Shown here: positions 7,641 through 58,490 of the stretch, in pieces | Numbering within the stretch: the stretch's first letter is position 1 | Layout: each line of letters begins with the position of its first letter | Source of the DNA: Grifola frondosa | Taxonomy: Eukaryota; Basidiomycota; Agaricomycetes; Polyporales; Grifolaceae | Direction: 5' to 3' | Length of the DNA: 64,000 nt | Assembly: GCA_001683735.1 (NCBI GenBank) | Contig: LUGG01000002.1 | Location: 3,224,001 to 3,288,000, forward strand | Position numbers and translations under genes: made by a program | Notes under the pieces: model-generated | Told to the model about the DNA's origin: nothing | The model's database searches: none | Seen by the model: the letters and a program-made list of their open reading frames with translations, nothing else

Positions 7641-7648
7641 TAGTGACA

Positions 7649-25709: not shown

Positions 25710-26134
25710 AAGTCACTGATACAAATATATTCTGTAGGGAGTCATGAAATATCACACCACCGTTATTCTTCAATCCGATTGGGGAGTGGTGGAGCTCACC
25801 ACTCTAGGGTGAATGAAAACAATGAGCGAGAATCGGACCCATTTGCAGTTGTAGTGGTTGCAGAAACACGAGGCCAGTAGGGGCCAATGAAGAATGGATT
25901 GAAGTCGTACAATGTAGCGAAGGACAAGTAAGGAGCAAGCTACAATCAGTGTCTGGCCATGCAGTACTCCAAACTTGGATTGAGCACTGCGACGCGACGC
26001 GACGCGCATCAGCGCGCTCGATGGCCGTGACACCGGACGGGCCCTTACGGTTTTGCCAGGCGCCTTGGTGGCTGCTCCTGACCGATTCGTGACGTCCGTG
26101 ACCCCGTTGTAACACTCACGGTTGACTTTGCACT

Positions 26135-27174
26135 ATGTCGACTACGACTATTAATTTGAACTTGCACTTAAAACGGATCCAGAAGTCCCTGGCCTTCGCA
26201 CTTGCCGCCCAGGATCCAGACGACCCTCAACTTCAGGCGTCGTTCCGCAAAGAAGTGGTGCGAGCTCGTTTTCTTTCCGGGGCTAACGTTGTGCTAACAG
26301 CCTTCTAGGAAGCAGGCGTTGCCTGCCTCCATGGCTGCGTTGCCCGCAACGAGTCTGTGCACCCCACCCTCCTCATGCTGAGCGCCGTCGCTGAAAGCGC
26401 AGATGCTCAGAAGTCCGGTCGGACGATCGACTTCAAGTCCATCCGCGAGGAAGATGGCAGGATCGCGGAGGGTTGGAGGGCCGCGGCCACGGCAGAAACT
26501 CCCGCAGACGTCGGGGACTTGGGAGAAAACCGCTGGTGGGAAGGTAAGTGGCAAGGTCGAGCGAGGCTGCAAGTCAGCTAATATCTACTGCAGGAGCAGG
26601 GGTTGCCATGGCAGGCACAGGAGCTACCGTCGCAGGAGCAGGAGCTGCCAAGCGCCCGCGAGAGGTCGACGGAGGAGAGGCGGATGCAAGCGCCGCATTG
26701 GCCAAGAGGACCAGGGCCGCAGCTGTTTCCCACTCCCGCCCCCCGGCACGAAACCGCGGGCATTTGGTCACCGAGCACCCATCCCAACAGAGCGAGAATG
26801 CTTTCCCCACGACGACTACCGATGACACGATTGTGTCGGTGAGTTACACCATGATCCCGATGGAATTCCTCTAACTTCATTTGAAGCCAATCATCTGCTT
26901 GCGATGTGCCGAAACCCATGCTGCCTGCTACGTCAACCCCACCACCGACCTGATTTGCGTTGTTTGCAAACTTACAAGGCGAGCCTGCAGCCTGATGCCG
27001 AAGAAGCAATCTGCAGATGGGCCCCCTAAGAATTTGCGGGGACCTCTTGGGCACCAGGAGTTAGGTGCTGAGCTCCAGAGGGCCCAGTCTCTCATCAATA
27101 CAGGGGCGATCCCGCATCCTCAGGCTGATGTTCCCCTTTCACAAGTACGGTCCGCCAAGAGCTTCTCAGGCTGA
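26135..27174 (+). CDS. Zinc-cluster (Zn2Cys6-spaced) protein, intact, 296 residues
   Basis: Four exons: 26135-26257, 26309-26543, 26594-26838 and 26887-27174. All have GT/AG borders and compatible phases, giving 296 residues. The N-terminal half is helical (AFALAAQDPDD, EDGRIAEGWRAAATAE). The middle has an alanine/glycine run and a basic segment AAKRPREVDGGEADAS that looks like a nuclear localisation signal. The last exon carries CLRCAETHAACYVN...CVVCKLTRRAC, i.e. C-x2-C-x6-C-x9-C-x2-C-x6-C. That is the spacing of the GAL4-type Zn2Cys6 cluster, but it sits near the C-terminus rather than the N-terminus. DNA binding is therefore plausible but unproven. An alternative splice from 27144 could add exons up to about 27816. 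It starts about 430 bp from the hAT N-terminus, divergently. Two related loci (48.6 kb, 54-56 kb) are broken. Confidence 0.72.
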
Positions 27175-28060: not shown

Positions 28061-30790
28061 AATATAATTGTCATATCAGAGCTTTGACATTTGGTCCAGG
28101 GGGTATCAGAAAATTATGTCTAGGATGCTAATATCATTGCCCACTCCATTTATAATCTATGCTGGCAATGATATCAATGACAGTTTAAGTCACTGGGTGA
28201 TAGTGTCTGTGTCAGGGATAGCAAGCAAAAACTTCCAGTTTACTGAAGACAATGATGACAATAGCTGACTGAAATGTGCCAAAGTGCCAAAGTTGTATAA
28301 GTACTGACCTTATTGTCAGAGATGATCTGCTGTTGCAAGCTGTGATCTAAATGGCACTACAGTGACCAAGCTGAATGTGGATTGTGTGCCAGTAAGCACA
28401 CATAGTTCATAAAAGTTAGTGGTGATAGCTACAGTTACTTATCAAGTTAAACATCAGATAGCTGGTCTCAAATCAGTTCCAATCTGATTATTAACAATGT
28501 TGATATTGTCCTTGAATTATTTATGGCTGGTCTGTAAAGTTGCATAGGATATTTTCAAGCATTTTGATGTCGACAGAGAGAACCAGCATAATGTATATGA
28601 TTTTGACAATATTTAATCAGACACAGAATGATATTCTAATGCATATTTGCAACATACACATTCAAATTGAAGCACATTTTATAACAGATTCAATAAATTT
28701 CTGTAGAATTATTGACATTAATTGTGTGCAAAAGAGTAGGTAACAGGACTGATGCAATGTGCAACAGATCCCCCAATAGTCACCAGGTCATTATGGAGGT
28801 GCCAGCCCTGCAGCTACTTTCAGGACCATGTGTTTCACGTGAATTTTGGCTAAAGCAGTGTTCATGTTGCTGGGATGCTCTGGTTCAGCATATGCAGAAA
28901 AGCTGCCTGCACAATGTATCAGTGAAATCAGAAAACTGATACAGAAATTGGATTGACCAGTTTCATCATGTAAGAAGACTGTCAACTTCATCTTTCCTCT
29001 CGAGATCCTTGAGCAAGTCAACAATGCTATTTTAGTGTTGCTGCAGCTAAGTTGGGTTTAAATCATATATGACTCATAACTTGTGCAGTTTTTTAGATAT
29101 CATAGTAATCTCACCTTACTTTTGTAGCCTAGGTATATACACCATGTAGTGATGGAGATATGGTCAAAAAGCTAATTGAAAAGTCCAACTTTTTGGTTAG
29201 CTATGTTACCAATGTAACTGAAAGTGAAACATATCAAAAATAATTATGCAAATGCTTGTGTTACATTCCAATACATATACATTTTAGCTATTAATTTCAA
29301 TTAAGATCATACCATTATCTGCAAAACTCATGTCAGAATATTTAAAAAGCTAAAACAGGTGAGACTAAGCTATGACAGTAGTAGCTACTGTAAAACCTTT
29401 CAGAATCTGTGATGAGATCTGTGCAGGAAAACACTGCAGCTGACATTAAGCTGAAGCACATTTACTGAGCTCATTTTAACAAGTGATCATGCATATGTAA
29501 TTGAACATACCTGCATGGCTATATAAGCAATGAAGGCCTTTGTCATAATGCACATCCCATGGATATGAGCATTGCATGATTGGGTTGCCTTCAGTTCTTG
29601 GTTTACTGAACTTGGGCTCGTGAAAATGAACTTTGCTGCCTATATGGAACACTTAGTATAAAAATTATACAAAACCTAATTGACCTACATTTGCCAAACT
29701 TCCACTTCTAAGTAGCCCATTTCATGGATCTTCTAGGTCATATCAGAAACTATTATAGAGAACAAGCAGTCATTGATCTCCTGCAACTCATATTGTCCCA
29801 GCACAAAGTTTCTCCTTGATGCTACAAAAGCAACATAAAAATAAATTCATGAAAGAACAAGGTGACATACTCATTATTGGACCAATTAAGTCCAGCCAGA
29901 CACAGCAGAGCTCTGGTGCATTCATGATGGAAATCTCACTGTTGTGCATGATGAAAGATGATAGTGCTTGTCCCTTGGGGTGATTCAACCTATTACAGTG
30001 CCTTTGATATTCTTTGTATCATCAGAGTGTGCACCATTCACATCTTTCTGGATCTGATGCTAATGTGAACAATAAACATAATGCACATGCATAACAGACT
30101 TACAAGGTCAGCCATCATAATCACCTTTTCCTCAGAAGACTCCAATATGTGAGATTTGAAATGAGAAATTTGCTTGAGGAGTTCACAGAAAACTCTGAGC
30201 TCATGGTGTTCACTGTAGACAAGGCAAATTTCAATCAGATAAACCAGAATGATATATGCATGACTGTCAACTCTTCTTTGGATTTGCCATCTGCAAGGTC
30301 TCTGAGAAAGATTATGCCATTGCACAACAAGGTTCAGACATTGCAAAAGGCATAAATTGTCTGTCTAAAATGGTGACTGTAATATATCAGAAGACCCTGG
30401 ATGCATCCATTGAAACTGGTCACTTGATGTTCTGATGACAGAGGTATCAAATGAAACAACTCACAATTCTTTCCCCAGACCTAACTCTAGTGTGCTGCTA
30501 TGCTTTCAACTGGAATCACAATTTGTAGGTGTGGGCAGAGAGTCAGCACACCTTTCAGTGAAGTGTTTCTGTTATTTACAGCCAGCTGGTTAATGACATG
30601 AGCTGATGTCATAGGTCAGCTGGTCCCAGCCAGGATTGTAACTTGTTCCATAGTTACAGCCTAGCTGAGCTTCTGTATTTTCAGTCTGGCTGAATATTAC
30701 TTCAGAAAATCTGTGTCTCCTTTGCATCAGCCTGGCCAGTGCTCAGGTTCACAGCATGGCCAGATGCTAATTGGAGTAGAATGTGGCCAT
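28060..30790. other. AT-rich stretch without recognisable genes
   Basis: Only short open frames occur on both strands and none shows a recognisable protein. The MITE copy 2 lies at 29033-29383. A pair of overlapping opposite-strand frames at 30040-30355 (for example plus-strand MRNLLEEFTENSELMVF) may be a fragment of an old coding sequence but is not assignable. From 30540 short phrases like ACAGCCAGCTGG begin to repeat toward the fold-back element. Confidence 0.5.
29033..29383. mobile_element. hAT-type MITE, copy 2 (diverged)
   Basis: The left end TAGTGTTGCTGCAGCTAAGT is intact. The right end is diverged (GACTAAGCTATGACAGTAGTA in place of GACTAAGCCATGGCAACACTA). The internal sequence matches copy 1 throughout with scattered changes and some small deletions. 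No clear 8-bp target duplication remains, which fits an older insertion. Confidence 0.8.
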
Positions 30791-32749: not shown

Positions 32750-33410
32750 AAAATCAAAATCTGATGGCAAGTTCTTGAACTAAAGTATTAAATGACATTA
32801 GAATGTTAGAATTTGAGTTGATACTCTGAAGTTTGACTTAGCATGAATTGGCATTCTGGTGTTTGATCTGACATTCTGGTGTTTAAATCACCATACTGGC
32901 ATTTGCAATGACATTTCGATGTTTTAATTATCATGCTGGTATTTGTGTTTATATTCTATGTGGATTAGCATTTTATTATTTGAACTGACATTTCAGTGTT
33001 TAAACCATGACATGTTGATGTTTCAATCATCATGCTGGTGTTTTTATACTCTGAGATGTGGATCAGCATTCATTCTGTTATTCGAACTGGTATTCCAGTG
33101 TGTGAACTGGCATTTTGGTGTTTGAACTGTGGCATTTGGTGTTTTGTCAGTGTTTGAACTGGCATTTTAGTGTTTGCACTGGCACTTTGATGTTTCAATC
33201 ACCATTTCAGTATTTCAATCACCATGCTGAGATTTGCATTCACATTCTGGTGTTTAAATCACCATACCGGTATTTGTGTTAATATTCTGGAAATCCATTT
33301 ATATTTTAGATAAAGTTGAGACAATAGACATATGTATGCTTCAATGTTTAGGCAAACACTCCGGTGTTTGGAGATTGAGTTGATACTTTGGTGTTTGTGT
33401 ATGTTATAGA
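32750..33410. repeat. Minisatellite, about 20-bp unit (TGTTTGAACTGGCATTTTGG-like)
   Basis: Units of about 19-22 bp with consensus near GTGTTTGAACTGGCATTCTG recur for about 660 bp, with considerable drift. Sub-variants such as TGTTTAAATCACCATACTGG form higher-order groups. Non-coding. Confidence 0.75.
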
Positions 33411-34590
33411 TATGTTTTGATTTAGCCACTATATGTTTTTCTCTTCATTGCTCTTTCAATTCTCAATGGATTTTCTCCATATATAGCTTGTTTAAAAGAT
33501 CTAATTTGGTAGATTTATTATTGGAACATGCATTTGCATGATATTGAAAGAAAAACATGTTATTCTGTTCTGACTATACAAAACGTTCTGCAAATTGGAA
33601 AGTGAATACTTCATCAATCAGACCATATAAGACACCTTTTGAATGATGAAATTTACCCCAATATGGCTTAGTTTATTTCGAAACAATTTATCTTATACTC
33701 ACTTCATAATATGTATTCTGCCACATCATCACTAAAATGTGATGTTTCCTTGCCAGAAAATGTTACAGTCATTATCAAATTTCAACAAGCTCACATAATA
33801 TAGTCTAAATCTATATCTACATGATGCAATCAAAACTGAAAAATCCATGAAGAAATGGTATAGATATGAAGAGATTACCTCTGGCACACCAAATTGTGGC
33901 TGAATGCTTTGTGTTGCTATGCTGAGCTCGAGTCACCTGCACAGTAAATAGGGAATGCAAACACACTAATTATTGTCAGTTTTCCATCATTTGTTTATTA
34001 AACCATGTATCTTCTTTAATTCCATGGAGTGGTACAATTGTGTGACCTATTGTCCAATGTTGTTTTATATATTAATAACCATGCTTGTAAGTTTGTGTTT
34101 CTTCTCAAAAATCCATCCACATGTTAGCTTGATGACTTCTGAACCTCCTTGTCATCTTCTCATGTCTTCACATATTGATGCATATCTGCTGTGGTGCCCA
34201 TTGCTGAGATTTTGGATTTTTGAGTGAGGCAGTGAGGACATGGGCATTTAGATATGTACTTGATACATGTGAGGAGAACTCTGGTGGGTGCAGGCAGTGT
34301 TAGATGGGAAGGATTAAGAATACATAGATTTACTCACTTTTCGGGATAATCTGCAGAGTATATGAAAAATCAAGGGAACAAATGGTGAAGAATTCCATCA
34401 GCGTACAAGATAATTATGCCATGCACCTAAGCATGAACTTGGGATCTAGGAGGAGAAGCCAAATGGTCTGCATAAGTTCGCACTTACAGAATGTCCAAAA
34501 AGCAAATGTCATGCTGTTACCATGTAACTCGGCATAAATATCTTGAAGTTCATCTGGAAGCTGGGTGGAAGATCTTAGTAAATGCGCAAT
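33410..34590. other. AT-rich, no gene recognised
   Basis: The first 200 bp resemble the centre of the fold-back element (AAACATGTTATTCTG near 33554, compared with AAACATACCATTCTG near 31471). The rest contains only short, unassignable open frames. Confidence 0.4.
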
Positions 34591-34592
34591 AA

Positions 34593-34935
34593 TAGTGTTG
34601 CTGTAGCTAAGTCAGGCCTAAATGATATATGACTTATAAATTGTGCAATTTTTCAGATATCATAGTGATCTCACATTCATTTTGTAGCTTACATATAGTG
34701 ACATATGCCTGCCAAAGATAAAGACATTATACATTGTATTGATGGAGATATGGTCAAAAAGCCAATTGCAAATCCGACTTTTTAGTCAGCTTTTTTTACC
34801 AATGTAACTGAAATTGAAACATATTAAAGATAATTATGCAAATGGCTTTGTTACATTCCAATACATATACATCTTAGCTATTGATTTCAATTAAAATCAT
34901 CTCACTATCTGCAAAACTCACGTCAGAATATCTAA
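34593..34935. mobile_element. hAT-type MITE, copy 3 (right end missing)
   Basis: It starts TAGTGTTGCTGTAGCTAAGT and matches copy 1 up to GTCAGAATATCTAA. There the last roughly 45 bp are absent and the sequence passes directly into the inverted-repeat arm that begins about 34940. The truncation point therefore coincides with another element's border. Confidence 0.85.
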
Positions 34936-34939
34936 GTTT

Positions 34940-36216
34940 TTAGAACTTTCCAGAAGATTACAGTTTTCAAAAGAAGAATTTTAATCGAAATTTCTACTTC
35001 AGAATATCCTGGAACAATCCAGAAACTCAAAGAAATTTCCAGAATATTTTGGCAGATTCCAGAATAACATAGAACCATGGAGAACATCTTAGAAACTTAT
35101 AGAGCCTGAGAGAATTGTCCAGAAGGAGATAGAACTGTGTAGAAAGTACCAGTAGGTCAGAGATGCTTCTAGCAACTTTCAAAAGCCATTTGTCAGCAGA
35201 AAAATTGATGGATTGGTAAGCATTGGGAGTGGATTGGTAAGCAAGAAGAGGATTAGTCAGCCATAGAATAAAATAGAATATAATAGAAAGGAAGGATTCA
35301 GGAGGGTATATAAGGGTGAGCGAAACATTGTTCCAATTATATTCTCCCCCCCAGATTCCTCCCCCAGTAGCTCTTCCTCACAATTTATATTCTTTCTCTT
35401 AACTCAAAGCACATCAGAAGTATTGCCTAGGCCCACCTGCTTACTAAGTATTGACCTGGATTATTAACTTGCCAAAGCAAGAGACTTTGGGAGTGCAAGT
35501 TCAGGCAAAAGGTTGAAGATTGTCAGACCTTTGTTAGGACAGAAGCTCTGTCACAAAGGAAGTTACCTAAATTGTCAACTGTCCAGACAAGAAGATTCTG
35601 GAAGCACAAGGTTAGGAAAGAAGATCAGAAGTCACTGACCTAGATTGTTAGCTTGCCAAAGCAAGAGACTTTGGGAGTGCAAGTTTAGGCAGATTAGTTG
35701 TCAGCATCAGGTGAGCAGTATTAATAAATAATTTGGTATTGTTTGGAAAGTTGTCCTGTGAGTGGATTTAGGAGTATAAGTCTCTGGAAAAGAAGTCCAG
35801 AAGCATTCCCCATTCACCAGGTGGAATTTGTTGTGGTAACAAAGTACTGCACCAAGGCAGTGACTTTCAAGGAAGTTTGTAGTGTACTGATGAAGCAGGC
35901 TATTGGAGTCAAGCCTTGCCATTGTTTCTAGTCCCCACAGGTATATTTCGAGTAATTGAACACCATAGAATGATCCACAGAGCATTGTGATCTTTTGTGA
36001 GAAGTAGAAAGTACACTTTCACAACTGAATTTAACTGAGCCTCTGTCTGGAAAAGTAGGAAACCCCATTAAGCTCAGTGCACCCATCATTTCTGGGTAAT
36101 AACCCCTCGCTATCAACCAAATTATTACTCTCATCAGATAGTCTTTTGATTATTTGATAAAAGTAGTGGTTGTTTAATACCGATCACTGGAAATACACAA
36201 CAATGCCTTCACACTC
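34940..36216. repeat. Inverted-repeat arm A (left copy)
   Basis: About 1.28 kb that is the reverse complement of 42327-43627. Features shared by both: a dense cluster of CCAGAA/TTCTGG phrases; a short run of TAGAA units; TATATAAGGG at about 35314 (TATATACCCTCC in the mirror), a possible TATA box; and about three imperfect 60-110 bp repeats containing GCCAAAGCAAGAGACTTTGG (35474 and 35655). No protein is encoded. It resembles an LTR or long non-coding end of a retroelement, but no matching direct copy is present. Confidence 0.75.
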
Positions 36217-36444
36217 AGCACCTGGGCACATGTAATCAGACATCCTAGCTTCATCAGAACTGTGGGATGATATAGCAGGATCTCTTGCAATGTGTAGAAT
36301 AGGCAATAATGTTAACACAGGAGCACGAAGTGCAGCAAGAAGACAACAATAAACAGATGAATTTGCAATGACATGTAACAACGATACTACCTCTAATCTA
36401 AACTCCACCGACAATGCCCAATACATTGATACGACAGCCTCAGA

Positions 36445-36780
36445 TAGTGTTGCTGCACCTACAGATATCATAGTGATCTTACATTCATTTCGTAGCCTAT
36501 ATATAGCCGCATACTCTTGCCAATATAAAAATGTTATACCTCATATTGACGGAGATATAGCCAAAAAGCCGATTGCAAAGTCCGACTTTTTAGTCAGCTT
36601 TTTTACCAATGTAACTGAAATTGAAACATATTAAAGATAATTATGCAAATGGTGGTGTTATATTCAAATATGTATACATCTTAGCTATTAGTTTCAATTA
36701 GGATCATGTTATTATCTGCAAAATTTATATCAGAATATCTAAAAAGCTGAAACAGGTGTGACTAAGCCGTGGCAACACTA
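36445..36780. mobile_element. hAT-type MITE, copy 4 (perfect 8-bp target duplication)
   Basis: Bounded by TAGTGTTGC and GCAACACTA with exact 8-bp duplications GCCTCAGA at 36437-36444 and 36781-36788. About 45 bp near the left end are deleted compared with copy 1. It inserted into LTR-like sequence X: the mirror copy of X at about 45600 lacks it. Confidence 0.92.
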
Positions 36781-36784
36781 GCCT

Positions 36785-38019
36785 CAGATATGCAAATCGA
36801 ATCATTTTTGCATTTAGAACTGATGATCACCCAGGAGCTATTCTAGTAGGATTGTACCTGTGATCACGTCATTGCAGGTCACTTGCACCATATTCTCCGG
36901 CTTTGTTGTGATGTGCGATCAATTGAATGTCGACTATCAATGGGTCCTCTACTTCATATACTCCAAATTCACATGATACGTCATTCTGCTATTCAAAATC
37001 ACCTCATGGCAATGTGCGATGTGTCAAGACACTTGCAACCCAATTGTTCGGCATCCTACATGCATCTACCTGATGGATCACACGCATCGAACTTGATCCC
37101 AGTCTTTTTGACTTTTACCCAGTCTCAGATCATTTCCATAACTAATTTAGCTATGCCACGTGACTCCACACATCAATTTGACGTCTCCACTATTGTCTGT
37201 GGTGCACCCCGGACCGTACTACTGATGCAACACATTTTTATTTACAACAGATGCCCCGAGAAGGCCATGCATCTACTCGCATGTGCCTTCCCATATTTCG
37301 CATGCCGGTGCAGTGCATGGCTATGCATGGCAGGTGTAGTAGTTCAGCCACCATACTTTCTGTATTTTCCTTTCACCCCAATTTTCCATAGCTTACTTGT
37401 GTTGCATTTCATCTCAGACCTTTAATAATATTGCGACTGACTTTTCCTCTATAAGTTAGCATATTTCACAGGATGTGTTCATTGCACGGTACTTGCAATC
37501 GGCTTTTGATTCATACCGAGGTTTTTTTGCATTTCAGATATGTAGAATAATTTATAAAAACTCATGTATAATACGATGCGAATCAGATACGAGTTTTCTC
37601 CACAAGAACAGAGTTCAAAATCATCGGCTTCACTTGTGATCACATCCACTCTACACTAAAGCTCTTCTCACACTGCAAAACTGTGACTGCGATACTTGCG
37701 ATTATATGTATAAACCATTGCACACACTGTGACTTCAAACCTACGATCAAGGAGACCTCTTTAGTTGTGATACGCATGGAGTGTGCGAAGAGTCAATATT
37801 GCTAAATATTTCTTTTATATTATTCTGTGTTCCCCAAGTTTTGGAGACATGTGATTTACTTGCAATTTGCGAGTATAATCAGTCACTTAGTTCTGTGTAA
37901 GGGACCTCTGCGAGAAATTGAGAGCCCATTCACACTATATTCTCGTTGCTATTGACTTTACGATTTATAGGATACATATTTGTGTTTTATAGATCAGAGT
38001 TGGCAAGAGAGTATCAACA
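36785..38019 (-). repeat. LTR-like sequence X, left copy (minus orientation)
   Basis: Read on the minus strand it begins TGTTGATACTCTCTTGCC at 38019 and runs outward. It is the reverse complement of 41587-42327 joined to 45108-45600. The sequence is rich in TGCGA/TCGCA in the right copy and in the corresponding TGTGA/TCACA in this copy, as if many CpG sites had become TpG/CpA here. A TG start next to gag remnants supports an LTR identity. Confidence 0.65.
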
Positions 38020-38066
38020 TGCACCAACTTACTCCAACAACACTCCCCCATAAGTCCACCATGTCC

Positions 38067-38288
38067 CTAAAATGCAAACCCTTCATAGTCTGCCTTCTCC
38101 CCCTGAACTTGGGCAATCCCAGCAACAATGTGACCAGAAGGTATGGAACAAGATGAGGGACACATGGAAGCATAGTAACCATGACCACCACAATTGTGGC
38201 AAATGACATCACTTGCAGGGGCTCCCCACATTCGCTGACTTACTCCAATAACAGTATGTTGTGCAGAAGAAGAAGCTAGGTTATCCAT
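38067..38288 (-). pseudogene. gag zinc-knuckle remnant, minus strand
   Basis: Codes for CHNCGGHGYYASMC, a CCHC knuckle in which the expected His (C-x2-C-x4-H-x4-C) is Tyr. That is explained by a single C-to-T change. It lies immediately beside LTR-like X and in the same orientation. No polymerase domain is found next to it, so this is an internally deleted retroelement. Confidence 0.6.
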
Positions 38289-38289
38289 T

Positions 38290-39340
38290 TGTATAGCATG
38301 AGCTCTGTTTAGCTCTTAAAAAGAAGTTTGACTCACCCCTTTATATTGAGACACTTCGCATTCAATTATGGGAGCTTTCTTATAAGAATAATTTCATCCG
38401 TTATGTAGAGCCTTTCCATAATCTCGAATCACAAATTCCAAAGACTGCAATGACCTTTGGTAACAGCTTCACTACTTTCCTCAAGCATCTTTCTGTTGAG
38501 TTTGCCAAGGACCTCCATTGTGACAAACCTATCAATGTCAAAAAAGTACTTCTCTACATGGGAGCTTTACTGACTATCTAGTCTTTACCATGGGCTGTCA
38601 CATCCTCATGGAATATTTTTAAATTAGTCAAAGAAGCACAAACCCTGAACTGAGCCAAAGAATGTACTTCTCACTGATTTCTCTTCATGGCCAACTACTA
38701 CTACTTCTTCATCTGCCAATGAACCATAACCAATGGATCTAGACACCATAGACACAAATCTGTCAAAGTTGAGTGGTCCTCAGCCTAATGAGCAAAGTCA
38801 AGTATGTTGCTATAATTACACCAAGATGAGACATTGCTCACACAATTGTCGGGCTCATCATAAGCCTCATTTGCAGGATCTTTACATTTTCAAAATATCT
38901 CTGAGGGTTATCAGTCCATTGCAAAGTGAGGAAAAGGAGGATAGTTTGAAGGATGACTCATCTACAATTATACTGATGGACTTGGATGTAATTGATTTGG
39001 AGGATAACTCCCTTCCTCATGAATGACTTCCTATCTTCGCACTGAAGCTTTTGCATTGCCAACTGCTCATCTGAAAGTTCTTGACACTATTATTAACATC
39101 AGAGCTGTTTTTTTGCTATGTGAAACCTCCAGTCATTCATTCAATGTGAGCTGTTACCTACCCAATATTGACTCATCAAATTTGTGGGGTTGGACATACT
39201 ATCACCTCCACCTGGACCCATTTTGATGTTTGCATTAGCCCTGCCCTTGTCATTTCAGGATGTGCACATTTGTCCTTAACACTGACAACTTGCACAATGA
39301 TCTTGTAATTGGTCTAAATTGGGCTAAGACACTATAGAGC
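38290..39340 (+). pseudogene. gag-protease remnant of an LTR retrotransposon, plus strand
   Basis: Plus strand, interrupted by stops. A gag-type segment lies at about 38330-38580 (LRIQLWELSYKNNFIRYVE, then TAMTFGNSFTTFLKHL). A degraded zinc knuckle lies at about 38811-38852, where the second Cys is Tyr (CYNYTKMRHCSHNC). A retropepsin-type end at about 39300-39335 reads DLVIGLNWAKTL. A Ty3/gypsy-like gag is the closest fit from memory. It is truncated directly where the PRP8 fragment starts, with no reverse transcriptase or integrase. Confidence 0.6.
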
Positions 39341-39344
39341 TATT

Positions 39345-41575
39345 TTCGATCACGACATTGAACATTATGCCAGGGCGAAGTTCTTGGATTATGTAGGTTT
39401 CAATTACATTGACATTATCGTAGTCTAACGGTATGTAACAGATCTCCGACAGCATGAGCATATATCCGTCACCCACCGGAGTGATGATTGGCATGGATCT
39501 GGCATACAACCTCTGGTCTGCATACGGAAACTGGTTCCCTGGCATGAAGCTGCTGATCCAGCAAGCCATGGCGAAGATCATGAAGGCCAATCCTGCTTGT
39601 CATGTATCGCGGGAGCATATACGCAAGGGTCTGCAGGTATACTCCGAACCTACTGAGCCCTACCTGAATAATCAGGTATGTACATAGCCAAATGTCATAT
39701 TGGAGATGTTGAGATCTGATTACACCTTCCACCAGAATTACTCAGAGTTGTTCTCAAATCAGATCACATGTAAGTCCTAACCTTCTTCCAGGGTTTGTGG
39801 ATGACACCAATGTGTACCGCATTATGATGTGAGTCTTTGATAGATCTACGACATTTCCTTGTGCTCACAGTTCTCTAGTCACAAGATATTCAATGGTAAT
39901 TCGACTACGAAGCTCATCAGTACATCGTATTCTTTCTAATATGAATGATGCTCTAATCTTTGACCATCAGATGGCATCATCTTCATCTTCAACCCTCTTT
40001 CTGGTCAACTATTCTTGAAGATCTTTCACACCAGTGTTTGGGCTGGCCAGAAGCATCTCGGTCCGCTAGCGAAATGGGAAACTGCAGAAGATGTGGCCGC
40101 ACTGGTGCAGTCACTACCAGTGGAGGAACAGCCTAAGCAAGTTATTGTCACCCGTAAGGGCATGTTGGGTACGTATGCTTCAGTTTGATAGGATGCGCCA
40201 CGCTATATTGACATTATCCATCAGATCCTCTGGATGTTCATTTGCTGGACTTCCCCAACATGGTGATCAAGGGTAGTGAGCTTCAATTGCCTTTTCAGGC
40301 TTGCATGAAGATGGAGAATTTCGCGACCTCATTCTAGTTTGTATTATCTTACTATATTTCCCTGACGAGTACTTACAATTAGCTTTATCACAGCGTGCGA
40401 CCTAGCCTCAGATGGTTCTCTTCAACCTCTATGGTAGTATGCTTTTACTCGATGAAACCTAAAAGACTAATGGCCATATCTTAGATGACTGGCAGAAATC
40501 AATCTCTAGCCTCACGGCCTTCTCTCGTCTAATTTTCTTCTGCATGGCCTCCATGCCAATAATGAAAAGGCCAAGATTATTCTTCGCCAGACAAGAACAC
40601 GATCACGGAATCTTATTTCGTTTGGCCGTCTTTGACCGACGAAGATTGGATCAAAGTCGAGGTCGCACTGAAGGATCTCATCCTCGCCATATGTTTCAGC
40701 GCTTTGTAATAGAGCTGTCCTCGTGGAGTCATTTGTAGGATTTTGGCAAGTGCAACAGCATCAACATCGTGTCACTAACTGCAAGCAAAATAAGAGATAT
40801 CATCTTGGTCAGGAGATTGCAGCACCATCCGTGCAGCGAGAGCAGATGGCAGAGCTGGAGAAGAGCTCGGAAGCACAGAGTCAAGTGACTGCAGTCCAGA
40901 CATGTGTACAGTTTTAACGTCTGCTCATGATCTAACTGATCTTATATCTCGTAGTCAAGCGACCAACATCCACGGTGATGTAATCCAGACGGTCACAAGT
41001 ACATACCCTGGTTTTACTCATTGTTCCCCAAGGTGTTAATTATCTTACATTTAGCAACGAATTACGAGCAGCAGGTATTCAGCAGCAAGTCAGACTGATG
41101 CATGCATGCTATCTCGGCAATGCATCTCCCAATCCGTCTCCAGCACAGCTATGTCTCCAATGATGATGTCAAGGACAACACAGCGTCATTCACCAACATG
41201 CTTCCAAAGAACATTCTACACACCTTCGTCACTGCTGCTGATCTTCATACCCAAGTTGCAGCATTCTTGTATGAAGTGTCACCTCCGGACAGCAAGGAGT
41301 TAAGGTGAGTCCTTACGGCCTAGTACTTATTGTATAAAATGTTGAAGTATCTTCGATAGGCTGTAATATGGGTAAGCAGCAGCAACAACAACAGTGTCAA
41401 GCTTCCTTCGCCATTGCCCAGGGATGACTTGCTGCTCAAGGATCTCGAGCCGCTCCGATGGATAAAAACTCAAGCTCCAGAACCCCCAATCTACTGCCAA
41501 CAGATGTTACCACGCAAGTGAAGCTCGTGGCCGATTATTCTGAGTGGGGTTCATCATCAATTTGCTTGAGATGTG
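39345..41575 (+). pseudogene. prp8: PRP8 (spliceosome factor) C-terminal fragment with introns, captured and decayed
   Basis: PRP8 is the U5 snRNP scaffold protein at the heart of the spliceosome. This fragment covers its RNase H-like domain and part of the Jab1/MPN-like domain. Recognisable blocks in order: DIEHYARAKFLDY (ends 39393), [19 protein letters not shown] (39454), [89 protein letters not shown], then TASKIRDIIL and NMLPKNILHTFVTAADLHTQ, and finally DLEPLRWIKTQAPE and EWGSSSICLRC. At least seven introns with GT/AG borders remain (for example 39394-39441 and 39676-39735), so the capture was at DNA level, not from spliced RNA. Frame breaks near 40320, 40600 and 41090 show it is not functional. 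It begins directly after the retropepsin remnant and ends about 12 bp before LTR-like X. A functional full-length PRP8 must exist elsewhere. Confidence 0.93.
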
Positions 41576-41586
41576 CCCCCAGTCCC

Positions 41587-44500
41587 GTTGATACTCTCTT
41601 GCCGACTCTGACCTATAAAACAACAAATATGTCTTCTATAGATCGTAAAGTCAGTAACAACGAGATATAGCGCGAATGGGCTCTCGATTTCTCGCAGAAG
41701 TCCCTTGCACTGGTTTATGTGATTGATTTATACTCGCAAGTCGCAAGTAGATTACGTATTGCTGAATGCTTGGAGAACGTAGAACAATACGAAGGAATGG
41801 CTTAACAGTTTTTATCTCTTCGCGTGCTCCACGCGTATCGCAACTAAGGGGTTTCGCGGTCGTAGCTTCGCAGTCGCGGTTTGTACGAAGGTGTACACAT
41901 ATAGTCGCAAGTTCGCAGTCGCAGTATCGCAGTGAGAGGAGAGCTTTAGTGAAGAATGGTCGCGATCGCAAGTGAAGCCGACGATTTTTGAACTCCGTAC
42001 TTGTGGGGGGACACTCGTATCTGGTTCGTATCGTACTATACATGAGTTTTTATGAATTACTCTACGTATCTGAAACGCGAAAAGACCTCGGTATGAATCA
42101 AAAGCCGGTCGCAAGTTCCTTGCGATGAACATATCCTGTAAAATATGCTAACTAGTAAAGGAAAAATCAGCCACAATATCAAGAAAAGTCTGGGATGAAA
42201 CGTGACACAAGTAAGCTATGAACAATCAAGAAAATGGAAATACAGAATGTATGGTGGCTGAACTACTACATCTGCCACATATAGCCATACACAGCACCGG
42301 CACGCAAAACACGTGAAGGCATGCGTTGTCGTGTATTTCCAGCGATCGGTATTAAACAACCACTACTTTTACCAAACAATCAAAAGACTATCTGACGAGA
42401 GTAATATTTGTTTTATAGCGAGGGTTATTTCCTAGAAATGACGGGTGCACCAAGCTTGACGGGGTTTCCTACTTTTCCGGACAGAGGCTCAGTCGAGTTC
42501 GGTTGTGAAAGCATACTTTCTACTTTTCACAAGGATCACAATGCTCTGTGGTTTCGTTCTACGGTGTTCGATTACTCGAAATATACCTATGGGACTAGAA
42601 ACAATAGCAAGGCTTGACTTAAATAGCTTGCTCTGTCAGTACACTACAAACTTCCTACAAAGTCACTGCCTTGGTGCAGTACTTTGCTACTATGACGAAT
42701 TCCGCCTGGTGAATGGGGAAATGCTCCTGGACTTCTTTCCAGAGACTTATACTCCTCAATCCACTCACAGGACAACTATCCAAACAATAACAAACTCTTT
42801 CTTAACACTGCTCACCTGGTGCCTTTGCGACAGGGCTTCTGTCCTAACAAAGGTCTGACAACTAATCTGCCTAAACTTGCGCTCCCAAAGTCTCTTGCTT
42901 TGGCAAGCTAACAATCTAGGTCAGTAACTTCTGATCTTCTTTTCCTAACCTTGTGCTTCCAGAATCTCTTGTCTGGACAGTTGACAATTTAGGTAACTTC
43001 CTTTGGACAGAACTCTGTCCTAACAAAGGTCTTGACAATCTTCAACCTTTTGCCTGAACTTGCACTTCCAAAGTCTCTTGCTTTGGCAAGTTAACAATCC
43101 AGGTCAATACTTAGTAAGCAGATGGGCCTAGGCAATACTTCTGATGTGCCTCAAGTTAAGAGAAAGAATATAAATTGTGAGGGAGTGCTACTGAGGGAGG
43201 AATCTGGGGGGGGAAGAATATATTCGAATGATTTGGGCGATTTTTCGCTCGCCCTTATATACCCTCCTGAATCCTTCCATTCTATTCTATTCTATTCTAT
43301 TCTATGGCTGACTAATCCCCTTCTTGCTTACCAATCCACTCCCAATGCTTACCAATCCACCAATTTTCCTGCTGACGAATGGCTTTTGGAAGTTGCTGGA
43401 AGCATCTCTAACCTGCTAGTATTTTCTGCACAGTTCTGTCTCCTTCTGGACAATTCTCCCAGGTTCTATAATCCTAGGATGTTCTCCATGATCCTATGTT
43501 ATTCTGGAATCTGTCAGAATATTCTGGAAATTTCCTTGAGCTTCTGGATTATTCCAGGACATTCTGAAGTAGAAATTTCGATTAAAGTCCTTCTTTTGAA
43601 GACTGTAATCTTCTGGAAAGTTCCGGAAACTTCTTCTCTGCTAGGTTATTCCGGAATGTTCATGAATATGAAGCCACAGGTCTATTTGTCCATGTCACAG
43701 TTGCCACAGTGTCCATTTGCTGATCCAATCCAGATTATATGATATGGATTTGGTGAAATGTGCTGAGTAATGACAAATGTGTGCAAATAGAGAGGAATGG
43801 GATAAGTCTTTGCATAGCATAGATGTGTCCCTAATTATCCTGCACTTTCTTTTGCAGCTTGCTTCTTTATCATTATTTTCTTCATCATGGAAACTCGCAA
43901 GGGTATGCTGTCTCGATGATGTGGTTTCCATCCTATCTTCTGACCAATCTGATAACTCCTTTTCTGCCATGCTCTCTTTCCTGCAGGTCTTTGTATTACC
44001 AGCTTGTGGTGGGGGAGCGTAAAGGCCATCTTCTAATTCTTCATCAATATGCTCTTCTGATTTCTCACTTTCTTCTGCTATAGTCTCCTCTTCTAATGCG
44101 TTAGTGTCTTCATAAGTGACACTTTGAGAGAGAGGGTGTTCATATAGAGAACTGCTTGGAATCATGACGAAAGTTGGGAGTAACTGACAGTGGACGAAAT
44201 AAATGAGGATATAATGACGAAATGTAATCGACATTGACCATATTCGTACATAGCCTTGTTGCTCGAAATTAATGGATATAGGTCATAACACGTGACATAT
44301 TCTCGATATGGCTGACACTGTCGTAATCCTTTTGATAAGTGACTAGCACTTGACTTTGCTGTCACCTAACATTGCCAATTGTGTCTACAATAGGTATGTT
44401 ATAGGATTATTGGTGATAAGTATATCGATGAAACGTTGTTGACTTTATAGTTGGAATAGATTCGTATCGCAATACATTTATTCCAACAGTCAGTTGCCTG

Positions 44501-45600
44501 CGTAGTTTGCTCATCGTAACTAATTGAGCAAGCTACTGATCAGCCATTTCGATTGATATAGTGTCCTTCTTTGAACTCTCTGCTGAAACTCGCTACGACT
44601 TCATCGTTCATTCTCGGGCTGTTGCTGATGCACTCGACATCGGGGCTAGGCAGATTCGTCATGATATTCGAGTACTGGGACGACTTCGGAGTGATGGCCG
44701 TTCGGTACATATCGGTTATCCTGACCGGTTCATTCTCTATCTCGGGGAGAGCTATCTCAGCAACTTCTTCGGCGCATTACTAATGATGACCATGTCCCTC
44801 TCCGCACTTATTCAATCTGCGACTTTCCACACTCGGTTTCCACGATTATATCGCAAATGCCTTTATGTGATTCGGTGCCTTGGTACATCCCATCTCTTGA
44901 CTACTATATTTAGGGAGGATGAGGATTTCTTTTGGGCCTGAAGAAGTAGTATAGATCTGATTCTGTGTAGTACTTCTTTTGTAGGATTACTGGAATATTG
45001 ACATCCTTTCCTAATGAGTATGAGATGCTAGTGGTGCCAGACTTGAGATGTGCTGATCAATGGTCACATTGCCATGTTCGAGTACCAATCCATTTTGGTG
45101 CACGACAGCGTGAGTAGAGCGCGGCCTTCTCGGGGTGTTTATTGTAAAAGGGAACGTGTCGCACTGGTAGTACGGCCCGGAATGTGCCACGGACGATAGT
45201 CGCGATGCCGCATTGACGTGTGGAGTCGCGTGGCGTAGCTAAATCGGTTATGGAAGTAATCAGAGACTGGGTAAGAGCCGAAAGGACTGGGATCAAGTTC
45301 GACGCGTGTGATCCGCCAGGTAGATGCATGTAGGACTTCGAACAATTGGGTCGCAAGTGTTTTTGACACGTCGCACGTCGCCATGAGGTGGATTTGAATT
45401 TGAATATGACGTATCGTGTGAATATTGAGTATGCGAAGTATGGTAGGTGATGCTCAGCTTGCTGCGCATCGCAACGAGGTGTAGAGTTATTGTTTAGATG
45501 ACCTGTGATGAGTAATCGCAGGTGTGATCTATTGAAATAGAGTGTAGCTCCTGGGTGATCGTCAGAGGTTCGAAATGCGAAAATGATTTGATCCGCGTAG
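41587..45600 (+). repeat. LTR-like sequence X, right copy, split by an insertion
   Basis: The plus-orientation mirror of 36785-38019. Part 1 is 41587-42326 and part 2 is 45108-45600; the joined parts collinearly match the left copy. This copy is rich in TCGCA/TGCGA, suggesting it has kept CpG sites that the left copy lost. Confidence 0.7.
42327..45107. mobile_element. 2.78-kb insertion with TGTCGTG...CACGACA ends and GCGT duplication
   Basis: Deduced by comparing the split right copy of X with the unsplit left copy. The insertion starts TGTCGTG and ends CACGACA, flanked by GCGT at 42323-42326 and 45108-45111. TG...CA ends and a 4-bp duplication fit an LTR-retroelement-type integration. The first 1.3 kb is arm A (mirror of 34940-36216). 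The remainder contains a minus-strand open frame 43695-44234 (acidic, EEETIAEESEKSEEHIDEEL) and a plus-strand open frame 44561-44941, neither recognised. No second copy of arm A is present at the right end, so a normal two-LTR structure is not seen. Confidence 0.65.
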
Positions 45601-45604
45601 TTAG

Positions 45605-46310
45605 GGCCATCGTATCACCATCTCGCTCTCTATACACCGCCTCACCATTGCTGCGTTAAGTGGGATCCTGGTATTTGTGACCCATTCTTCTTACTACTTT
45701 TGGTTTCTCTTAAATATCATTTTTTGTATGTGAAAAGCGGCAAAAGCACTCTAAGAGACACAATCAAAATAAGGTTGTCTTACAGTTATTTATCTTTTCT
45801 CGTTTGTTCTGGTTTATGGTTCTTTGCAGCAATTTCTTTTCTTAATGATCTTACACGACTACTGATATCGAACATTGGCACCCGAGTGCTCTTTGCTTAA
45901 TTTTCATTTTAGAGTCCTTTGTTTGACTTTACGTGAAGCGCCGGGAGCTATCACGATTTTCTTACATTACTTACCTTACTTATATTTCTGATTTTCTCTT
46001 CAACAATCGTTTTTACGTTTATTTATCCTTTTTTAAGCAAAAAAAGAAACAAAAAAAGTAGAAAGCAAAGTTTGAGTTTTGCTGATGGATTTGATCTCTG
46101 AATCGGAGGATGACTCTGGTGTTCGGTGATATAATTAAGTTTATTATTGAAGTGTCATATCATTTATATTTGTATTTTAAAATAGACACCCAAGGAATCC
46201 CAACTATTACAGTTGATGATGGTTATATCCTAAACGCCCTGCAGCAGCATTGTAAAGCTTGAACAGAGAGCTATCAAGTTGGATATCATTGTCTGGAATG
46301 CTCGGAAGGT
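45605..46310. other. AT-rich, with one MITE-like right end
   Basis: GTTTGAGTTTTGCTGATGG at about 46068-46086 matches the right end of the CATCAGC MITE family (46534 and 57970). I could not find its partner left end within 400 bp. No gene is seen. Confidence 0.4.
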
Positions 46311-46534
46311 CATCAGCAAAACTTGAATTTTCCTTGTCACTCTTTGGGCTCTTCTTAGTTCTTTTCAGTTCTTTTCTTCTTTATTAACATAAAAATTTCC
46401 TTTTTTGGACACTTTTTAAGTAAAAAAAAAAAAGGAGCGAGCCCTCCTTTTGTTCCTTTTTCTTCTTAATTTTCTTAAATAAGCATTTTAAGTAGCAAAA
46501 AGTAACTAAAAGGAAAATTCAAGTTTTGCTGATG
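46311..46534. mobile_element. CATCAGC MITE, 224 bp, perfect 25-bp inverted ends
   Basis: Both ends read CATCAGCAAAACTTGAATTT followed by TCCTT (25 bp, no mismatch) in inverted orientation. The centre is poly-pyrimidine/poly-purine (TTCTTAGTTCTTTTC..., AAGTAAAAAAAAAAAAGG). No clear target duplication is visible. A relative with TTTTTCTTAG in the end sequence is at 57755-57973. Confidence 0.8.
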
Positions 46535-46796
46535 CAATGTAGCTAAAAACCCATAATAGAATTTGCTTGATAGTAAAAAGGTTGTTGGCAAACCTCCAGG
46601 CTTAAGAGCATTTCTATGAATACAACTGTATGTTTCGTGTGAATAAAAATGAGTTATATCATGGAATATGTTTCACAACAAGGGAGTAATGGTCACACAT
46701 CCAAAGAGATGAACTGTGGGAAGAACATATCCAATGTGAACATATCTTCCAGTGGACTACGGTAACAGCTGGCCGGAAGACTGGAACACAAATCCC

Positions 46797-47877
46797 ACTA
46801 TCCAAGCAGGCTTCTAGAATCAGCCGTCGCTACCATGTTCACATTGCTACATATTTTGTGAAGATTATGTAACATGTTAATAAAAGATTTCTTAATAAGA
46901 AAATTTACCAGATTAAGAAATTTGAACAAGAGCAAGTGAACACACTAGGACGGCTGGCCAGAAACATCGACTGAGATCCCCGAGCACTGATAACTAACAG
47001 TCACATACACAAACCAGGGTGATGGCAAGTCATCTTGCATGACAGCTCCAGCAGCTCACTTCAAGGGTACATCTTGGGGTCCTCATGCCACAATGCTACC
47101 TTGCAGTAGCCACATGTACTAGGAATGAATACATATCCTCTCCGAAAATGTGTGCAGCAACTGTTCTGTCGGACTCCAACATGTTGCTCACAACAAATGA
47201 CCTCGAAAGCTCTCTTGCAATTGTGGATCAATATGGCACAACACTTCCAGAGCTTTTTCTTTCATTATTATGTAACGAAGAATTACTTCATAAATCAGCA
47301 ATATCAGACTTTTTACAGAGCACGGAGGAGATAATAGAAGCTTTGAACAAGCACCCGTATCCTAGGGGAGCTGTTTCGCACTGGGCATGTTGCTCTGTGA
47401 AGGAGTATGCGAAAAAAATCACGGAGTTGACAAAGAAAACTGGCTTACACTTCAATGTTTCGAATGCAACACATGAGCAGCTTGAGTGATTCGATATTGC
47501 TGAGGTCACGTATTCGAGTGATGGACCATTTTGATGATGAGGAAGACATGATTGCATTACGTCGAACTTAGTTAAAAATCTGCACGACGTATGTGTGAGG
47601 ACCCCAAGACGTACCCTTGAAGTGAGCTGCTGGAGCCGTCATGCAAGGTGCCGTCGCCCTGGTTTGTGTTGGTTATCAGCGCTCGGGGATCTCGGTCGAT
47701 GTTTCTGGCCAGCCGTCCTAGCGCGTTCACTTGCTCTTGTTCAAATTTCTTAATCCGGTAATTTTCCTTATTAAAAAATCTTTTATTAACATGTTACATA
47801 ATCTTCACAAAACATATGTAGCAACGTGAACGTGGTAGCGAGGGCTGGTTCTAGGAGCCTGCTATCCAAGATTAATC
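46797..47877. mobile_element. Element with about 285-bp inverted arms around a 134-codon ORF
   Basis: The left arm 46797-47083 and right arm 47600-47877 are inverted copies (about 90% alike by eye, with a few small gaps). Shared landmarks are AACATGTTAATAAAAG, GAACAAGAGCAAGTGAAC, CGGCTGGCCAGAAACATCGA and TGGGGTCCTCA. The central 516 bp holds the ORF at 47085-47489. TAATCCCACTA phrases follow the right arm. The outer ends and target duplication are not resolved. Confidence 0.7.
47085..47489 (+). CDS. 134-residue protein fragment inside an inverted-repeat element
   Basis: The ATG lies two bases inside the end of the left arm. The protein contains LAIVDQYGTTLPELFLSLL, SAISDFLQSTEEIIEALNKH and KTGLHFNVSNATHEQLE. 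From memory the order F.LSLL...L..L..H...R..V..WA...V......L....GLHF.A..A...QLE resembles the N-terminal part of a large transposon-associated protein family in Agaricomycetes; no catalytic domain is present. It probably represents a captured or internally deleted piece. Coding would stop about 110 bp before the right arm. Confidence 0.45.
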   Translation: MPQCYLAVATCTRNEYISSPKMCAATVLSDSNMLLTTNDLESSLAIVDQYGTTLPELFLSLLCNEELLHKSAISDFLQSTEEIIEALNKHPYPRGAVSHWACCSVKEYAKKITELTKKTGLHFNVSNATHEQLE

Positions 47878-48249
47878 CCACTATCGGCTGTCAATCCCAC
47901 TACCGGAAACAATCCCATTACCCACTACATAGTATATACTCAGTTAGGTTGCGCATATGGGAGGGAGTCGCCGACGTTTCGGCAATGCGTGCGTTTGTAG
48001 TGATGTGGTGACGGTCAGCGACCGGTCGCCAAGCGGGCGCTGAAAAGTTGTGCGGCAATTTTGACTGATGGTTCGCGGTTCGGTTGCGGGCGCTCATGGC
48101 AAATTGAGCCAAACAAGCCGCCTCTCACACGAAGACTATTTTCTCTCCCTAAACTTGGCTTTGACTTATTATGACTCATACTACAAGTACCCAAAGACTC
48201 GTCCACCTGGTATGCCCGCCATATACCCATCAATTGTGACATTCTAAAA

Positions 48250-55908: not shown

Positions 55909-56119
55909 AGCGCAAAGTCAACCGTGAGTGTTACAACGGGGTCACGGACGTCACGAATCGGTCAGGAGCAGCCACCAAGGCGCCTGGCAAAACCGTAAGT
56001 GAGAGAGGTGGAATTTCGCCGGGCGTGCGGAAAATTTTGCATGATAGGCAGCGTTGCTGCAAGCTCAACTAAGCCAAGTTAAGTTGAAAACATGGGCGAA
56101 CTTGTGAACGCAAGCTTGC

Positions 56120-57330: not shown

Positions 57331-58490
57331 ATTTTCAAAGTGAGCGAGATTAGAGCTCGGTTACGCCGCAGCAAGTCACGGCATTGTCACGATATTTGAG
57401 ATTCCGCTTGTTGTCACGGTAGTGGTCCTGGGTTGTGACGATAAGAATCGCCTGACGTTGTAATCACATTAAAATAAAACATTATATTAAGCTTTCAACT
57501 TGAGTGTTTCAGTAATACTCGATCAACGCAACGCAAGTAACGAAACGACCCGAATACGGCATTGAATATACAATGATAAGGTAAGCACTGTAATCCCAAT
57601 ATTTGAAAAAGAGTGATTATACCTTAGCGTGGCAACTTATCGGTCAAAAGCAAAGACTGGTACAACACAGATGCAACGTTATTTTTCCGATATTGTTCCA
57701 GTACGGCGCTTACACTTGGGCAATATCGTGATAGCGCCGTGTCTATACTGGCCTGGCCATCAGCAAAATCCAACTTTTTCTTAGAGACTTATCCTCACTT
57801 AATGTTACTTTTTTCGTCACTTAGAGTACTTAATTTCAGAAAAATAAGTAGCCCTCGACTCTTTTTTCCTTTTTGGCTTTTAAATAAGATGATTAAGAAC
57901 AAAAAATTGCGATAAGCTAAATAAGTAGGACTCTCTAAGTGTACTAAGAAAAAGTTGAGTTTTGCTGATGGCCCTGGCAGAACATGTAACTTTCAGTATC
58001 ATTGTAGTACTAAATATATAATATTATATCAATGTCACTAAAGCCTGTACTCAGCTCGGGCAAATGCTTGGGTGTGTCGAGATGGATGGCTGTGGATATT
58101 GGGTTGTTTGAATTCTACACATCCGGTTTCATTCCATTCTTCATATTAGACAATTGAATTTATTATAAATGAGCGCGACGATGACACGGTCAACTAAGAA
58201 CGAGCCAACAAGAAAACATTTGATAGCACAGAAGAAAGGATAGCGCAAATCACCATACATGAACGCATACATGATGGCCTCAAACACCGACTTCTACCAC
58301 ATAAGTTCCGCCTCTATTGCCTTCTGCGATGGAGCTGTAACAGTGCCAACAGGATGCCGAGTATCGAGGGGGTTGTATATGCTGAGGTCGTTCATAAGCA
58401 TCTCCGTAAAAGGCCTAAGAAGCAGAACATTTTTAGCACCACACCATCAAAAATCAATTGTGACTTACTTTATATAAACTGCATTGTATT
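57330..58490. other. Gene-free stretch containing a CATCAGC MITE
   Basis: Apart from the MITE at 57755-57973 I see no gene. 57480-57700 has scattered TTGCG/CGCAA words similar to LTR-like X, but no alignable match. Confidence 0.4.
57755..57973. mobile_element. CATCAGC MITE, 219 bp, about 30-bp inverted ends
   Basis: The left end GGCCATCAGCAAAATCCAAC and the right end, reversed, GGCCATCAGCAAAACTCAAC both continue with TTTTTCTTAG, giving a near-perfect terminal inverted repeat with two mismatches. The centre is AT-rich. GGCC at both sides may be part of the repeat or a palindromic target. Related to the element at 46311-46534, which shares CATCAGCAAAAC. Confidence 0.8.

Follow-up and report, generated by a model that had tools for sequence, protein, structure and literature searches.

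The PRP8 sequence in the window (the whole 64,000-nucleotide stretch of DNA that was analyzed, C2:3224001-3288000 of a 39.06-Mb genome in 64 contigs) is very probably a remnant of a large PlavakaB-type (CACTA-like) DNA transposon that carried the larger part of the host PRP8 gene in genomic form. In the proposed course of events, a PlavakaB-type transposon would have taken up most of the gene, introns included, and the PRP8-bearing family members would have spread to the four places at which they are now found. The window copy would then have lost the 5' part of the transposon, and LTR retrotransposons would later have landed in and beside its cargo, giving a head-to-head LTR picture. Uptake may have proceeded by template switching during the repair of transposon-induced breaks or of an excision gap, or by the joint mobilization of neighboring elements, which the accessible portions of PMC8903248 and PMC13317346 propose for Pack-CACTA. 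Once PRP8 cargo existed, the resident gene could have been favored as the template when PRP8 was taken up again or converted.

The fragment at 39345-41588 (plus strand) is genomic PRP8 DNA from the C-terminal part of the gene. It is substituted at 9.7% relative to the near-complete PRP8 gene on C17, and it ends with the LTR target duplication CCGT (41585-41588). The match to C17 covers 39345-41577 and reaches 41587 with softer scoring. PRP8 coding blocks had been reported here in a preliminary description, and they are real: each of the three forward frames of 39345-41587 has a match to the Pfam family PRP8_domainIV (E as low as 7.6e-33), and a tblastn search of the stretch with the Trametopsis PRP8 protein returned five stretches (aa 1703-2251), as compared with PRP8 hits in 0 of 100 shuffled versions. 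One window frame also gave a weak match to an unrelated viral domain (E 0.03, below cut-off), which was taken as chance. The earlier count of at least seven introns was right as to their presence but too low; all 12 introns placed in this stretch by the C17 splice model are found in the window copy. Their donors are GT in ten cases and AT in two, and their 3' ends are CAG or TAG in 11 and AAG in one; one intron has been shortened from 45 to 22 bases, and several others are a few bases shorter. Because these introns are retained, a spliced-mRNA origin is excluded, as had been argued before. The arrangement expected of a processed pseudogene or an LTR capture, i.e. spliced cargo between the LTRs of one element, is not what was found: the 12 introns are present, and an LTR lies inside PRP8.

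A DNA search of the genome with the window PRP8 stretch, in which all four candidates were scored, matched the stretch itself, C17 (88%), C22 (84%), and part of C16 (87%). Profile searches of the genome yielded ten matches to PRP8_domainIV (on C17, C2, C22, and C16), 18 to PROCN (on C17, C36, C16, and C22), and six to RRM_4 (on C17, C22, and C16). Every candidate in the PRP8 DNA and domain-family searches was scored, and PRP8 was found besides C17 at only four loci (the window on C2, and C22, C16, and C36). The C17 sequence spans Trametopsis PRP8 residues 1 to 2366 almost gap-free, which bears out the expectation that PRP8 is present elsewhere in the genome. It was taken as the resident gene, though it is frame-broken in this assembly. 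The nearest PRP8 proteins in a protein search were agaricomycete (Trametopsis cervina, 89%; Boletus, 88%; Lentinula, 88%), suggesting that the host is a mushroom-class fungus. The notion that the C17 gene is dead because of its frame breaks was dropped, as 1-nt indels dominate even between near-identical duplicates in this assembly; frame breaks were therefore not used as evidence, and all tests rest on substitutions. Some introns of the C17 splice model are false and span frame breaks, so the protein alignment was used to assign codon classes. The element flanks were not found around the C17 gene: when the window and 20-kb stretches of C22, C16, and C36 were compared with 40 kb of C17 using BLAST, only the gene was shared.

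The carrier has both termini at two of these loci. The C22 element (390219-409651) starts with CATCAGCAAAACTC and ends with its inverse, flanked by a putative CA/CA duplication; the C16 element (550623-572531) has the same start and inverted end and a putative TA/TA duplication. These 2-bp duplications might have arisen by chance, at odds of about 1 in 256 for the two together before the choice of boundaries is allowed for. Both elements contain remnants of the Plavaka transposase (PF18759), broken in each case, and in both PRP8 lies between the transposase and the 3' end. The unit shared by C22 and C16 fits the published PlavakaB description, which in the text available from PMC12730594 gives termini CATCA..TGATG and target-site duplications of 2-3 bp. 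PRP8 thus lies between terminal inverted repeats (TIRs) in C22 and C16 while a near-complete gene is on C17, and element flanks are common to four loci, as in transduplication with copying to several places. At least 154 Plavaka matches are present in the genome (123 of 228 candidates scored).

C22, C16, and C36 have long upstream flanks in common (the transposase region and beyond), and their common 3' flank corresponds to window positions 45666-46090; all of these flanks are absent from the 40 kb of C17 compared. The PlavakaB 3' terminal region in the window (45666-46087, plus strand) is homologous to the 3' ends of those three elements, and it closes with the 3' terminal inverted repeat CATCAGCAAAACTC (46074-46087, minus strand). 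The 5' part (TIR and transposase) was found neither in the window nor within the 10 kb to its left and right, and the assignment of the window copy to PlavakaB is based on its 3' end and the PRP8 sequence that adjoins it. C36 likewise showed no 5' end; thus, the termini 5'-CATCA..TGATG-3' are present at both ends in C22 and C16, and at the 3' end only in C36 and the window. Two MITE-like units with Plavaka-like inverted ends were also observed in the window, one of 224 bp at 46311-46534 (CATCAGCAAAACTT at both ends) and one of 213 bp at 57758-57970 (CATCAGCAAAATCC / CATCAGCAAAACTC).

The comparison of cargo with carrier bears on how often PRP8 was taken up. Between C22 and C16, the backbone is substituted at 26.2% and the tail at 24.8%, but PRP8 at only 8.9% (p=5e-110 and 4e-23). 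Between C16 and C36, the corresponding values are 20.0% for the transposase, 13.3% for PRP8 with an RPN7 piece that interrupts it, and 22.7% for the tail (p=8e-5 and 1.5e-4). Furthermore, the segment equivalent to C17r 18787-19507 is present twice in the C16 element, and the two pieces differ from C17 at 26 and 106 of 689 shared sites (3.8% vs 15.4%; p=9e-14). In the older piece, most differences are at third codon positions (26 of 115, vs 7 and 8 of 115 at the other two), a pattern that an early departure from the gene or an origin in a related lineage would produce. C36 also has an extra PRP8 piece, out of order and 18.5% from C17. The two PRP8 ages in C16 and the unequal divergence of cargo and backbone indicate two or more rounds of PRP8 entry or renewal. 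The renewed entry would have been a new capture, gene conversion with the resident gene, or exchange between elements.

It is rather likely that PRP8 uptake happened separately, and at different times, in several Plavaka elements, or that the elements swapped cargo, as opposed to a single capture with subsequent transposition; this reading refines the main explanation. Against independence, C22 and the window fit common descent of cargo and tail: PRP8 is substituted at 12.6% and the tail at 13.1% (p=0.86), and such equal divergence implies that the two traveled together. The junctions of the RPN7 piece are likewise common to C16 and C36. Mutation rates might differ between backbone and cargo, although a threefold difference seems unlikely. 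A more tentative extension, which we regard as possible but rather less likely than not to hold, is that existing PRP8 homology made the resident gene a repeated repair template, so that cargo was refreshed faster than backbone and Plavaka became a serial collector of housekeeping-gene fragments. If that were true, the resident PRP8 would be exposed to recombination with decayed copies.

PRP8 is accompanied by pieces of other host genes. In C16, RPN7 (PF10602) was matched in two ORFs, with E 8.9e-12 in one and with E 7.1e-7, slightly short of the cut-off, in the other; a PCI domain (E 6.7e-9) was matched as well. This RPN7/PCI piece interrupts the C16 PRP8 at a point equivalent to about C17r 15003-15018, and both junctions are identical in C36. 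An apparent resident RPN7 is located at C16:492766-493478, about 57 kb from the C16 Plavaka element; that distance would suit local hopping, as a single case. Farther along, C16:567553-570885 contains ATP sulfurylase (PF01747, E 5.1e-53), APS kinase (PF01583, E 1.3e-8), and an exon of an ArsA ATPase (PF02374, E 1.4e-8). A DNA search with this stretch located apparent source loci on C19 (90%), C6 (91%), C1 (83%), and C3 (86%); these and the RPN7 locus are probably resident genes. The coordinates of the apparent sources, RPN7 included, are C19:158574-159650, C16:492766-493478, C1:364455-364772, C6:451535-452150, C3:906855-908340, and C19:451028-451756. Parts of the same stretch recur near Plavaka matches on C17, C1, C12, and C41: the ArsA-exon piece and parts of the C3-like piece lie near Plavaka transposase at C17:8201-11413, C1:3218231-3221439, C12:1342451-1344333, and C41:29235-31119. 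Cargo modules thus recur across elements. The segment just upstream of PRP8 in C16 (559865-560558) has one relative on C19 (75%) besides that in C36, and C16 also gave a weak protein-kinase match (E 1.8e-4, below cut-off). Family scans of single ORFs were empty in five of six of one set and five of eight of another. They were also empty for C22 398.8-402.0 kb (both strands) and 390.2-394.0 kb (plus strand), for C36 9.3-10.0 kb (one frame) and 10.0-10.9 kb (three frames) on the plus strand, and for C16 558.3-560.6 kb (minus strand).

An ordinary ectopic or segmental duplication of PRP8, invaded later by transposons, would also yield partial copies and a window copy with its introns. It is nonetheless quite improbable, in that the four copies have transposon flanks in common on one or both sides and share no flank with C17 within the 40 kb compared, the RPN7 insertion junctions are identical in C16 and C36, and TIRs bound the C22 and C16 units.

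The preliminary description viewed the fragment as cargo of a retroelement-derived palindrome. PRP8 does lie between inverted copies of one LTR family (LTR-B) and adjoins a gag-like remnant, as would be seen had an LTR retroelement captured it. The inverted copies are real (36796-38018 vs 41587-42321 plus 45112-45592), and the structure is an inverted one rich in transposable elements. Read rightwards, however, the order is PRP8 (39345-41588), LTR-B (41589-45617), PRP8 again (45618-45665), and the Plavaka 3' end (45666-46087). LTR-B is a solo LTR of about 1.2 kb, inserted in the PRP8 cargo on the minus strand (in reverse orientation, TGATAC...GTATCA); its halves occupy 41589-42326 and 45108-45617. 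The LTR start that had been placed on the right side of the fragment is thus present and lies at 41589, following the duplicated CCGT. The flanks of LTR-B read CCGT/CCAT, as compared with a single CCGT in C17. The resumed PRP8 cargo (plus strand) begins with the second target duplication, CCAT, and ends at the junction with Plavaka. It matches C17r 22679-22726, the part of the gene that continues where the left piece stops, at 36 of 47 aligned bases, and 0 of 2000 shuffles reach its score; the piece is short, and another place in 40 kb of C17 scores 31 vs 34. The target duplication and the collinear PRP8 beyond it indicate that LTR-B was inserted into pre-existing PRP8 DNA.

Between the halves of LTR-B is a younger solo LTR of 2781 bp (42327-45107, no strand assigned) from a high-copy retroelement. 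It is flanked by GCGT/GCGT, the first of which constitutes the last four bases of the first half of LTR-B. At least 30 near-full copies occur elsewhere (24 at 98-99% and six at 96-97% identity), with 40 of 232 candidates scored and the query covered to within about 100 bases; at least six pairs are about 17.8 kb apart, and the window copy is therefore a solo LTR. The second LTR-B copy (36796-38018, plus strand) has the opposite orientation and is followed by an internal remnant of its element (38019-39344, plus strand), broken off at the PRP8 fragment. A retropepsin remnant had been described at this left edge. It was not confirmed: a scan of the three forward frames of the remnant at E 0.1 detected no retropepsin family, and the only signals were weak and gag-like (Ty3_capsid, E 7.8e-4, which misses its cut-off).

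Capture of PRP8 by an LTR retroelement is accordingly very improbable. LTR-B has its own target duplication within PRP8, which resumes beyond it; introns are retained; and the C22 PRP8 is without these LTRs over nearly the same region (one alignment continues as far as C17r 22531 and stops shortly before the LTR-B site). The carrier is of the Plavaka type, and the “palindrome” consists of two LTRs of the same family that were inserted in opposite orientations, one into and one next to a transposon that was there before them.

Two other repeat arrangements were observed in the window. A dispersed repeat of about 380 bp has five copies (7648-8029, 29033-29383, 34593-34973, 36464-36780, and 59700-60081), with further copies at C22:413112, at C36:6144, and in the stretches flanking the window. 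An inverted duplication in GC-rich DNA (26044-26735 / 55175-55999) comprises three pieces of 182-338 nt at 99-100% identity, with arms about 28-30 kb apart.

The PRP8 pieces carry roughly 6-18% substitutions relative to C17. At codon positions 1/2/3, these amount to 3.8/4.0/8.9% in C16, 6.0/5.2/9.0% in C22, 10.1/8.5/13.6% in C36, and 6.8/6.5/12.4% in the window; the respective intron values are 10.1, 11.7, 20.0, and 14.2%. When overlapping copies were compared with each other, the third-position excess was not significant in three of four pairs: C16-C22 (8.3/7.9/10.1%, p=0.059), C16-C36 (13.9/12.1/15.5%, p=0.13), and C22-C36 (14.6/13.4/13.5%, p=0.86). The exception was C22-window (9.7/9.9/14.6%, p=0.013, or 0.0034 outside CpG/TpG contexts). 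The copies thus mostly decay freely while the resident PRP8 changes chiefly at silent sites. The C22-window excess is not predicted by simple neutral decay after one capture, and it may reflect uptake at different times or a period of constraint.

Transitions at CpG, compared with other C/G sites, reach 26.8% vs 6.7% in the window, 20.3% vs 8.0% in C36, 10.6% vs 5.5% in C22, and 8.0% vs 5.3% in C16. The observed/expected CpG ratio is 0.63 in the window (0.98 in the corresponding part of C17) and 0.92 in C36 (C17, 1.15); depletion is absent in C22 (0.97 vs 0.98) and C16 (1.12 vs 1.14). Judged from this CpG decay, the window and C36 copies were probably methylated. An action of the fragment on the host, e.g. 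through antisense RNA or a truncated Prp8, is very unlikely. In principle, its length and similarity would allow the fragment to pair, and the C22-window excess could also mean a spell of constraint; arrayed against this are the three copy pairs without significant excess, the CpG transitions and depletion of the window copy, and the lack of any Rfam match at the gathering score in window 33000-48000. Nothing that points to a function was found, the decay appears almost neutral, and a function is unlikely; most likely, the PRP8 copies are silent passengers.

A second contig bears on the quality of the assembly. C31 (41.7 kb) contains the right flank of the window from the young LTR on (C31:13523-16957 and 36500-37100) at 99% identity, a value found over 3.4 kb and rising to 100% at the Plavaka tail; where the window has the solo LTR, C31 has two LTR copies 17.8 kb apart. 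Window 44166-47589 differs from the C31 copy by three mismatches and 18 gaps, 17 of them of 1 nt. Such gaps between near-identical copies suggest assembly indel errors, and the frame breaks in the C17 PRP8 may share this cause. The DNA search with the window stretch gave no PRP8 hit on C31 (four of four candidates scored). C31 was considered as an allelic contig and rejected, because the DNA to the left of the young LTR matches none of the sequences with which it was compared, and because the contig gave no PRP8 hit; it is a rearranged haplotype or relative, or a misassembly or misjoin, and it was not used as an allele. That the window arrangement is itself an assembly artefact is the least probable reading: although gaps outnumber mismatches 18 to 3 over the 3.4 kb and C31 joins the same right flank to different left-hand DNA, the PRP8 pieces stand roughly 6-18% from C17, the window and C36 copies show CpG decay that is directional, and the matching GCGT duplications of the young LTR across the window junction imply that the arrangement is coherent.

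A Plavaka lineage whose cargo includes about 7 kb of a gene that is essential and evolves slowly, together with fragments of several other housekeeping genes, extends transduplication to mushroom Plavaka. The cargo provides a natural clock, in that its distance to the resident gene dates each uptake, and two uptakes of one gene segment in one element open the mechanism, be it gap repair or joint mobilization, to testing. For annotators, there is a warning that PRP8-like fragments in such genomes can be transposon cargo.

Helitrons, which are characterized by a RepHel protein, are not known to have TIRs or target duplications; the C22 and C16 elements have TIRs and 2-bp duplications. The gene-carrying Helitrons of Pleurotus (PMC4289320, as far as its consulted text goes) are alike in being basidiomycete DNA transposons with extra genes. 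In Pyrenophora tritici-repentis, a host-like gene (histone H3-like) lies between fungal TIRs and was multiplied with its element; this carrier is a hAT, not a Plavaka, and its longer form has ten almost identical copies with a full-length transposase, the H3-like gene, and an ORF of unknown function. The portion of PMC3538342 consulted calls this the first fungal example of transduplication. Plant Pack-CACTA and Pack-TYPE elements, as presented in the consulted parts of PMC8903248 and PMC13317346, resemble the present ones as CACTA-related TIR elements that copy host-gene fragments, some from multiple loci. They are described as non-autonomous, with CACTA TIRs and without transposase, whereas transposase remnants are present here in C22 and C16 and the TIR is CATCAGCAAAACTC; the host kingdom differs as well, and one cargo stretch here comprises about 7 kb of a single gene. 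With PlavakaB of Agaricomycetes (Kojima 2025, PMC12730594), the present elements share the Plavaka transposase, the CATCA..TGATG termini, and the 2-bp duplications. Some PlavakaB families carry a captured TET/JBP gene; unlike those described in the available part of that paper, the present elements hold decayed fragments of ordinary host genes (PRP8, RPN7, ATP sulfurylase, and an ArsA-type ATPase), with the introns of PRP8. In a literature search that covered titles and the beginnings of abstracts, and few subscription papers, no report of the capture of PRP8 or a housekeeping gene by Plavaka was found. The fungal cases of transduplication met in the sources, as far as these were accessible, are few: the hAT with the H3-like gene, and TET/JBP in several transposons. 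Transduplication by DNA transposons is thus a known phenomenon; the near-whole PRP8 cargo, the several host genes, and the repeated uptake look new, and the interest of the present case is in its carrier, the size of its cargo, and the signs of repeated uptake.
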